This document shows, piece by piece, positions 32,003-33,844 of a DNA stretch of 64,000 bases (position 1 is the first letter of the stretch; every line of letters begins with the position of its first letter). The position numbers and the translations under genes were made by a program. The notes beneath the pieces are model-generated. The model did not search any database. It had not been told where the DNA came from and worked only from the letters and a program-made list of their open reading frames with translations. Source of the DNA: Paenibacillus lutimineralis (GTDB lineage: Bacteria; Bacillota; Bacilli; Paenibacillales; Paenibacillaceae); assembly GCF_003991425.1 (NCBI RefSeq), contig NZ_CP034346.1, positions 595,501 to 659,500 of the forward strand. Reading direction: 5' to 3'.

Positions 32003-32208
32003 TCTCTACATCTACTCCTTTTATTTATAAAATGATAAAAATGAATATCAATTATATTATATAATATCGCTCAATATTTTGCGAATTAACATGATAGATA
32101 GAGGATCGGTGTACAATTAATGTTCGTGTTTTGGCGGATATAATAATAATTAAATAAAACAAACTATGAATTATATGTGAAAATACGAATATTATCATCA
32201 AACTCTTA

Positions 32209-32236
32209 TTGACTTATTCGCGTGATTTGGTAAGCT
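32209..32236 (+). promoter_or_regulatory. promoter ahead of purine riboswitch
   Basis: TTGACT with a TAAGCT box 16 nt on, preceded by TTGG. It lies about 40 nt before the riboswitch aptamer. The rest of the 408-nt gap (32003-32208) is AT-rich, with no gene seen; it must also hold the promoter of the leftward CNNM gene. Confidence 0.4.
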
Positions 32237-32274
32237 GTAATTGTTGATGAAAATCTAAATGCTCGGCACATGAT

Positions 32275-32338
32275 TTCGTATATCCTCAATGATATGGTTT
32301 GAGGGTCTCTACAAGGAACCGTAAAATCCTGGCTACGA
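32275..32338 (+). promoter_or_regulatory. purine riboswitch aptamer, guanine-type
   Basis: The sequence fits the purine riboswitch consensus. P1 is CGTA/TACG (32277-32280, 32334-32337). P2 is CCTCAA/TTGAGG with loop TGATATGG. J2/3 is GTCTCTAC, and P3 AAGGA/TCCT with the conserved loop ACCGTAAAA. The base just before the P1 3' strand (32333) is C, matching C74 of guanine aptamers rather than the U of adenine aptamers. P1 is short and weak, as in switches whose aptamer competes directly with a terminator. It lies 73 nt ahead of the FAD-dependent dehydrogenase gene. Confidence 0.88.
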
Positions 32339-32380
32339 TAGGTATGTTTCGTATACCTATTCATAGACTCAGGATTTTTT
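32325..32380 (+). terminator. riboswitch-controlled intrinsic terminator
   Basis: A long hairpin with outer stem AATCCTG/CAGGATT (32325-32331, 32370-32376), middle CTACGA/TCATAG, inner TAGGTAT/ATACCTA, then a T-run. Its 5' arm reuses the P3 and P1 3' strands of the aptamer, so aptamer and terminator exclude each other. That predicts read-through when ligand is bound, as in B. subtilis pbuE. Confidence 0.8.
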
Positions 32381-32410
32381 GCTATTTTTCTGACTTCAGG
32401 AGGGACATAT

Positions 32411-33844
32411 ATGAGTAAATATGATGTGATTGTCGTTGGGGCAGGACCAGCCGGTATTTTTGCCTGCTATGAGCTTACAAGGAAGGCACCACATTGGAAG
32501 GTACTGCTGGTAGATAAGGGACATGACATTTATCGCCGCCGTTGTCCGATTCTTGAGGAGAAGATTACGCTTTGTCCGCCAGCAGCTGGACGTAAGGAAT
32601 TTGCCGGCTGCCTGCCTGCGTGTTCGATTACGGCCGGATTCGGTGGAGCAGGTGCCTATAGTGATGGTAAGTTCAATATTACGACTGAATTTGGCGGATG
32701 GTTAAGCGATTATTTACCCCAGTCCAAAGTGCTTGAGCTAATTAAATATGTTGATCAGATCAATCTTGATCATGGGGCGACGACGACGATCACCGATCCG
32801 ACAACCGATGCCATCCGCAGCATAGAACAGCGTGGGTATGCTGCCGGATTGAAGCTGCTTCGGGCCCAGGTACGCCATTTGGGGACAGAGCAGAACCTGG
32901 AAATATTGAAGTCCATTTATGAATATTTACAATCCCGGATCGATATGCTATTCAAAGCAGAAGTTGAAGATATAGTTACTGTCAAACAGGACGGGCAACA
33001 TCAGATACAGGGTATTGTTCTGAAGAACGGTGAGGTGTACGAGGCAGATCAGGTCATGGTAGCCCCGGGGCGAGATGGCTCGGTGTGGTTGTCGGAAATA
33101 TTGAAGAAGCGCAGATTGAAGATGACGAATAATCAAGTGGACGTCGGGGTGCGCGTGGAGACCTCAGACATTGTAATGCGGGAAATTAATGAACACCTAT
33201 ATGAAGGGAAGTTTATTTTCAACACCTCGGTGGGGACTCGAGTTCGTACCTTCTGCAGCAACCCATCCGGGCATGTGGTTGTCGAGAATCATACGGGAGT
33301 GATGGCAGCAAATGGCCATGCATATAAAGATCCGGCACTAGGCTCGGCGAACACCAATTTTGCCTTGCTGGTCTCTCATAAGTTCACCGATCCGTTCGAC
33401 AAGCCGAATGAATATGCGCGTGAGATTTGCAAGAGAGCGAATGATCTATCCAACGGTGGAGTGATCGTTCAGAAATATGGCGACATTCTGCGCGGAAGAA
33501 GATCGACGGCTGGAAGGATCGCAGAGGGCTTCCTGGAGCCGACATTGAAAGAGGCGGTGGCTGGCGATCTGGGGCTTGTCCTCCCATATAATACGATGAA
33601 GAGCCTGATCGAAATGGTTGAGGCACTGGATAAAGTAACGCCGGGAATCGCTTCCGAGCATACGCTGTTCTACGGAGTTGAAGCAAAATTCTATTCCGCG
33701 CGTCCGAAGCTCTCAGAGGGGCTGGAGACGGAGATCAACGGCTTGTTCTGCGGCGGGGATGGAGCTGGAATTACCCGTGGCCTGGCGCAGGCAGGGGCTG
33801 CAGGGGTCTGGATCGCCCGTAGTATGATGGAGAAGATAAACTAA
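32411..33844 (+). CDS. FAD-dependent dehydrogenase, COG2509-like
   Basis: A 477-aa cytoplasmic flavoprotein. The dinucleotide fold opens the protein (DVIVVGAGPAGIFACYEL). ILEEKITLCPP, CSITAGFGGAGAYSDGK and the C-terminal GLFCGGDGAGITRGLAQAGA resemble the uncharacterised COG2509 dehydrogenases. The cysteine-rich stretch (RRRCPILEEK, LCPP, GCLPAC) near residues 38-75 could bind metal or be redox-active. Substrate unknown. A guanine-type riboswitch and terminator lie in the leader, tying expression to purine status, which suggests a role in purine or flavin-linked metabolism. AGGAGG lies 8 nt before the ATG. Confidence 0.85.
   Translation: MSKYDVIVVGAGPAGIFACYELTRKAPHWKVLLVDKGHDIYRRRCPILEEKITLCPPAAGRKEFAGCLPACSITAGFGGAGAYSDGKFNITTEFGGWLSDYLPQSKVLELIKYVDQINLDHGATTTITDPTTDAIRSIEQRGYAAGLKLLRAQVRHLGTEQNLEILKSIYEYLQSRIDMLFKAEVEDIVTVKQDGQHQIQGIVLKNGEVYEADQVMVAPGRDGSVWLSEILKKRRLKMTNNQVDVGVRVETSDIVMREINEHLYEGKFIFNTSVGTRVRTFCSNPSGHVVVENHTGVMAANGHAYKDPALGSANTNFALLVSHKFTDPFDKPNEYAREICKRANDLSNGGVIVQKYGDILRGRRSTAGRIAEGFLEPTLKEAVAGDLGLVLPYNTMKSLIEMVEALDKVTPGIASEHTLFYGVEAKFYSARPKLSEGLETEINGLFCGGDGAGITRGLAQAGAAGVWIARSMMEKIN

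Follow-up and report, generated by a model that had tools for sequence, protein, structure and literature searches.

The analysed window is a 64,000-nt stretch of the Paenibacillus lutimineralis genome (contig NZ_CP034346.1, positions 595,501-659,500) and carries on its forward strand, to which all features below belong, a gene for an FAD-dependent protein of 477 aa (32411-33844) that is predicted here to substitute for GMP reductase. Its leader contains a purine riboswitch aptamer (RF00167 match at 32256-32355), an intrinsic terminator (32323-32380), and a ribosome binding site read from the sequence (AGGAGGG, 32398-32404). Upstream lies a likely sigma-A promoter, TTGACT-16-TAAGCT (32209-32236), which was found with our own pattern in the window and nearly every relative and was not listed by a strict-consensus promoter scan. 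The promoter is accompanied by two PurR-type boxes: box 1 (AAATACGAATATTA, 32181-32194), recognised by the spacing of its CGAA/TTCG pair, and the inverted box 2 (32212-32225), which is separated from box 1 by a 17-bp spacer and overlaps the -35 box. The element TAATGTTCGTGTTT (32118-32131), placed by the spacing of its TTCG to box 1, may serve as a third, PurR-box-like site.

The preliminary description had proposed a guanine-type purine riboswitch at this place and a covariance search as a check. The search was positive: the Rfam model RF00167 matched over its full length, scoring 66.2 bits (gathering score 37; E 2.2e-9), and this aptamer was the only Rfam match in the window at gathering thresholds. 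According to the RF00167 alignment and the folds, the core extends from P1 to P1 (32276-32338) and comprises P1 (32276-32280/32334-32338), P2 (32284-32289/32299-32304), and P3 (32314-32317/32327-32330). The secondary-structure stability of the bare aptamer (32271-32344) was not unusual in a shuffle test (z 0.33). A total of 332 relatives of the FAD protein were found in named genomes, and the best 80 (84-98% identity) were taken for leader comparison. RF00167 was present upstream of the gene and on the same strand in all 80. In one relative (L024:2209-3001), the riboswitch lies about 690 nt upstream of the FAD gene, unlike in the others.

The guanine-selecting base expected from the preliminary description is C74, located at 32333. 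It is a C in all 81 leaders compared (the window and the best 80 of 332 relatives), and U47 and U51 are likewise kept in all of them; with U22, all four ligand-contacting bases are retained in the FAD-gene aptamer. The junctions carry no insertion in any of the 81 leaders, which, together with C74, U47, and U51, places the aptamer in the guanine-I class. PMC9295807 describes guanine-II and xanthine-II riboswitches with J2/3 and J3/1 insertions and, for xanthine-II, U51G; it also mentions an 8-oxoguanine variant and several purine-aptamer variant classes in Paenibacillaceae. Given this diversity, the aptamer could be a variant for another ligand (e.g., xanthine, 8-oxoguanine, or a nucleoside), with the gene belonging to the pathway of that compound, and A54 and, in most leaders, G73 do depart from the commonest guanine consensus. 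This is improbable: the four contacts are kept, J2/3 and J3/1 insertions and U51G are absent from the window aptamer and the 81 leaders, and G73 combined with a non-C at position 54 is also seen in pbuG-type switches of these genomes. Because A54 and G73 have this counterpart, the variant was set aside, and an ordinary guanine-I aptamer with guanine as the predicted ligand is the best-supported assignment.

The terminator hairpin (about 32323-32378), recognised from folds and leader comparison, ends in six T (U-run 32375-32380), and its 5' arm consists of the 3' strands of P3, J3/1, and P1, as in a pbuE-type expression platform. An inner, P4-like hairpin (32339-32359) can form beside the aptamer in the aptamer-enforced fold. 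An automatic terminator scan listed no terminator at the leader, a miss that we ascribe to a bulge in the stem. The segment 32324-32385 folded at -20.3 kcal/mol (z -4.63), with 0 of 200 shuffles as stable, and the whole leader (32268-32385) had a z of -3.11, with 1 of 200 shuffles as stable. The fold comparison suggested in the preliminary description gave a minimum free energy of -32.7 kcal/mol for the free leader versus -19.9 kcal/mol with the aptamer enforced, the latter value excluding the loop-loop contact and the ligand energy. At an assumed Kd of 5 nM, the ligand energy would be about -11.8 kcal/mol, near the free/enforced gap. In a series of growing transcripts, the free fold stayed within about 2.5 kcal/mol of the enforced one up to 102 nt; beyond this length it dropped from -22.3 kcal/mol to its final value once the terminator's 3' arm emerged, and the enforced fold did not change. 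The series contained no separate antiterminator. Both earlier claims, a terminator arm built from the P3 and P1 3' strands and the lack of a separate antiterminator, were thereby borne out, with J3/1 to be added to the arm.

Pairing between the terminator and the 3' strand of P3, scored as present if two or more of positions 69-72 were paired with the arm that immediately precedes a T-run, was found in 81 of 81 leaders (window and best 80 of 332 relatives). In 78 of them, C74 itself has a G partner in the terminator, and position 73 varies with its terminator partner (G-C in 50, G-U in 12, A-U in 9, unpaired in 10). For the FAD-gene leaders, this score supersedes an earlier, looser one, by which 80 of 81 leaders were called ON, L062, which has an insertion, was off, and several ON calls depended on stray T-runs; looser scoring also did not find the terminator of L001 and did not locate the aptamer of L005, which was called off. 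Because the P3 3' strand is taken up by the terminator in every leader compared, the design with the best support is a guanine ON switch, and the pbuE-like ON layout put forward earlier agrees with the sequences. The leader shares with the adenine ON switch of B. subtilis pbuE the inner hairpin and the subsequent strand exchange via P1, J3/1, and P3 into the terminator. It differs in that it has C74 instead of U74, guanine rather than adenine being expected, and precedes a flavoprotein gene, not a gene for a purine efflux pump, which we take the pbuE product to be. For pbuE, the inner hairpin and the strand exchange through these elements are described in PMC7707468.

The best-known guanine switches (xpt, pbuG, and pur) turn genes off, and the leader might be an OFF switch of the xpt kind if the overlap of terminator and aptamer were fortuitous or if some antiterminator structure had escaped notice. 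PMC9295807 points the same way, predicting guanine-I to be OFF and guanine-II to be ON in Paenibacillus. Such an OFF switch is nevertheless highly improbable, as the binding core is consumed by the terminator in 81 of 81 leaders (window and best 80 of 332 relatives) and the folding series lacks an antiterminator. The FAD-gene switch, ON in layout, shares its aptamer, including U47, U51, and C74, with the xpt-, pbuG-, and purE-type guanine-I switches; in the own genome, these have an OFF layout, except that no strong terminator was called for purE. The guanine-II and xanthine-II switches of Paenibacillus are also predicted ON in PMC9295807; the FAD-gene switch differs from them in lacking their insertions and U51G and in the gene it precedes.

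The own genome contains five purine switches. A survey of 24 genomes, 21 of which had a match, yielded 79 switches, of which 78 were classified (L196 was dropped); gene labels were assigned by reading key peptides by eye. All 11 switches before the FAD gene and all 10 before a DMT/EamA-type transporter were ON, as was one switch without a called gene (L253). The pur leaders were OFF in 16 of 19 cases, with no called terminator in the other three; 19 of 20 pbuG-type and 13 of 16 xpt switches were OFF. The remaining one pbuG-type and three xpt switches were called ON, with hairpins of -21.8 kcal/mol and of -13.7, -17.5, and -17.0 kcal/mol, respectively, and were taken as probable miscalls.

The two boxes at the promoter are inverted, 14 bp long, with CGAA/TTCG cores, and their spacer in the window is 17 bp. 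For B. subtilis PurR, PMC8789054 reports the same box length (14 bp) and cores (CGAA/TTCG), with the spacer measuring 16-17 bp. Among the 81 leaders (window and best 80 of 332 relatives), exact CGAA/TTCG cores were 30 bp apart in 32 and 31 bp apart in 17. PurR probably binds at these boxes, judging from core and spacing. The TTCG of the third box precedes the CGAA of box 1 by 63 or 64 bp in 51 and 18 of the 81 leaders, respectively. This distance is about six helical turns, and the third box, at 32118-32131 and at the corresponding place in L007-L086, may reflect extended or looped PurR binding.

To cover other families of Bacilli, 40 distant orthologs with 51-83% identity were picked. A CGAA/TTCG pair with a 16-17-bp spacer occurred before 26 of the 40, compared with 0.28 expected from base shuffles; one of the 26 pairs (L147) overlaps its aptamer. 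The riboswitch was detected by Rfam and our own model before only five of the 40 (L145, L146, L147, L166, and L171), so that the link to PurR extends further than the riboswitch does. These five distant riboswitches are outside the 81-leader layout score, L145 having been folded separately. In L171 (4300-4520), the terminator arm seems to be the complement of P3's 5' strand rather than of its 3' strand, which would be another route to an ON switch.

The FAD protein matched the Pfam family PF21688 (FAD-depend_C) with 34.7 bits against a gathering cut-off of 27, and some relatives carry the database name 'uncharacterized FAD-dependent dehydrogenase'. Curated families in Pfam and NCBIfam give it no specific function, and it did not match the GuaC family TIGR01306 in an NCBIfam scan at E up to 0.001. 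Its predicted structure had a mean pLDDT of 86.9, with values below 50 for residues 50-73, which hold C67 and C71. VP0956 (PDB 3nlc), an uncharacterised protein, shares 26% identity with the FAD protein over the aligned part; the PDB neighbours that follow 3nlc are general flavoprotein reductases and oxidases. Fold and PDB neighbours point to no substrate. Gene neighbourhood was considered as a clue to function and rejected, as the surroundings differ among the 15 relatives examined, and visual inspection of the neighbourhoods listed for the distant orthologs revealed no purine gene. A recurring ORF, read by eye as biotin synthase, lies downstream of the distant orthologs L149, L152, L154, and L158. 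Relatives with about 50% identity are widespread in Clostridia.

These elements suggest a single gene under a guanine-I aptamer with a pbuE-type platform, which might work as follows. In the absence of guanine, strand exchange by the inner hairpin's 3' side would proceed via P1, J3/1, and P3 until the terminator is complete and transcription stops, with C74, the would-be ligand partner, itself paired in the terminator. With guanine, the aptamer would hold the P1, J3/1, and P3 strands and polymerase would read through. Initiation should in addition need release of PurR, because the promoter carries PurR-type boxes; in B. subtilis, PurR release follows high PRPP. Together, PurR release and guanine-dependent read-through would allow expression of the FAD gene at times of ample guanine and relieved purine repression. 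GMP reductase, which converts GMP to IMP, turns surplus guanine into adenine building blocks, and these are conditions in which it would be useful. Since one would expect GMP reductase to be controlled in just this way, by PurR together with a guanine ON switch, the genomes were searched for its gene, guaC, whose product is IMPDH-like and unrelated to the FAD protein.

guaC was called by TIGR01306 matches over the cut-off, and the own genome had none. In 118 Paenibacillaceae genomes, with FAD orthologs defined by at least 82% identity, guaC was present in 4 and the FAD ortholog in 58; no genome had both and 56 had neither. The four guaC genomes fall in two genera in which the FAD gene is common: g14 (FAD in 7, guaC in 3, no genome with both or neither) and g1 (FAD in 8, guaC in 1, neither in 2); the genus-level probability of 0.0023 was calculated once the pattern was known. 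Among 398 Bacilli, with FAD orthologs counted at E below 1e-100, 137 genomes had the FAD gene only, 161 had guaC only, 98 had neither, and 2 had both, versus 56.9 expected with both. The genome-wide Fisher probability of 7e-39 is inflated by relatedness; when guaC was shuffled within families, 4.9 genomes with both were expected against the 2 seen (p about 0.027). Over 59 families, the FAD gene occurred in 25 and guaC in 22, with six having both among their genomes, and the exclusivity is largely phylogenetic. The control salvage gene ade, for which 114 of 115 positive genomes were entered, showed a mild depletion with the FAD gene (30 genomes with both, 39.8 expected, p 0.027) and co-occurred with guaC above expectation (65, 46.7 expected). 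Relatives with 30-35% identity are present in guaC genomes and were not counted as orthologs in the 398-genome table.

The leaders of 69 guaC genes were examined in two sets (9 and 60). PurR-type boxes preceded 46 of the 60 and 5 of the 9, including all four guaC genes of Paenibacillaceae; in the set of nine, no box pair was found before guaC of G135, G425, G294, and G436. G294 and G436 (L270, L271) are the two genomes with both genes, and their guaC copies are perhaps recent arrivals. According to PMC8789054, guaC is among the ChIP targets of B. subtilis PurR. A purine switch preceded guaC in only 4 of the 69 leaders, in four families (G247, G295, G395, and G444), as detected by our own model R1; L145 and L268 were included in building R1 and match it by construction, both having been found independently by Rfam. 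Rfam scored the G247 switch at 78.2 bits. All four have C74, a terminator folding from the aptamer strands, and PurR-type boxes, and none of the four genomes has an FAD ortholog, G295 having only a 30% relative. When the four were aligned over their whole length with 84 FAD-gene switches and five others, they scored best against an FAD-gene switch, L145 of family f20 (64.5-68.0, including the inner hairpin). Scores against the others were 5.5-10.5 for the own xpt, 14-18 for pbuG, 17-21.5 for purE, 30.5-32 for the DMT transporter switch, and 35-41.5 for an adenine switch; part of this gap arises because OFF switches have no overlapping terminator. The FAD gene and guaC thus share PurR-type boxes and, in 4 of 69 guaC leaders, a similar guanine ON switch.

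The preliminary description had expected that purine sensing might reveal the role of the gene, and regulation and phyletic pattern indeed point to a GMP reductase function. The PurR-type boxes, the conservation among relatives, and the connection with guaC were absent from that description. We put at roughly 60% the probability that the flavoprotein substitutes for GMP reductase, converting GMP to IMP in genomes without guaC, under a guanine-I ON switch and PurR-type control; ligand, direction, and activity are all predicted from sequence comparison. The regulatory evidence would equally suit a protein that deals with surplus guanine otherwise, by oxidising, reducing, or detoxifying some guanine derivative, and has only its regulation and niche in common with guaC; a flavoprotein that has general reductases and oxidases as its PDB neighbours beyond 3nlc could do so. 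We consider this unlikely, since a parallel function would not lead one to expect the near-exclusivity with guaC or the same kind of switch on guaC itself. A wider form of the substitution for GMP reductase stands at slightly better than even odds: that COG2509/PF21688-type FAD proteins, whose conserved cysteines may hold a metal or Fe-S site, would give Bacilli a second GMP reductase class with no relation to the first, and that a PurR operator plus guanine ON riboswitch would form a cassette placed on the FAD gene or guaC, whichever is present. GMP reduction by an FAD protein would, to our knowledge, be new chemistry for this reaction, which weighs against the substitution.

The FAD-gene switch represents a familiar type of element whose logic is inverted. 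In openly licensed papers, we recognised no report of this gene or guaC with a guanine switch, nor of an FAD-type GMP reductase. The class is widened by a guanine-I aptamer with an ON platform, conserved in Paenibacillaceae, Brevibacillus, and certain other families, and the layout would depart from the OFF prediction for guanine-I in Paenibacillus given in PMC9295807. An uncharacterised flavoprotein family would gain a specific, testable job, that of shifting guanine nucleotides toward the adenine side in bacteria that have no GMP reductase. Such a role, if real, would close a gap in how purine interconversion is mapped for many Bacilli and give a textbook reaction an additional, unrelated class of enzyme.

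The survey also contained a second guanine-type (C74) switch of ON layout with an enlarged, divergent P2/L2, located before the DMT/EamA-type transporter gene, a name based on our reading of the peptide (10 of 78 classified switches: L005:1501-1617, which is C1:919358-919474 of the own genome, and L254-L262). By the same logic, the transporter may be a candidate guanine exporter. In the relative G486 (L249:301-400), an adenine-type (U74) switch of ON layout precedes an MFS transporter gene, forming a pbuE-like pair, the only MFS case in the survey.
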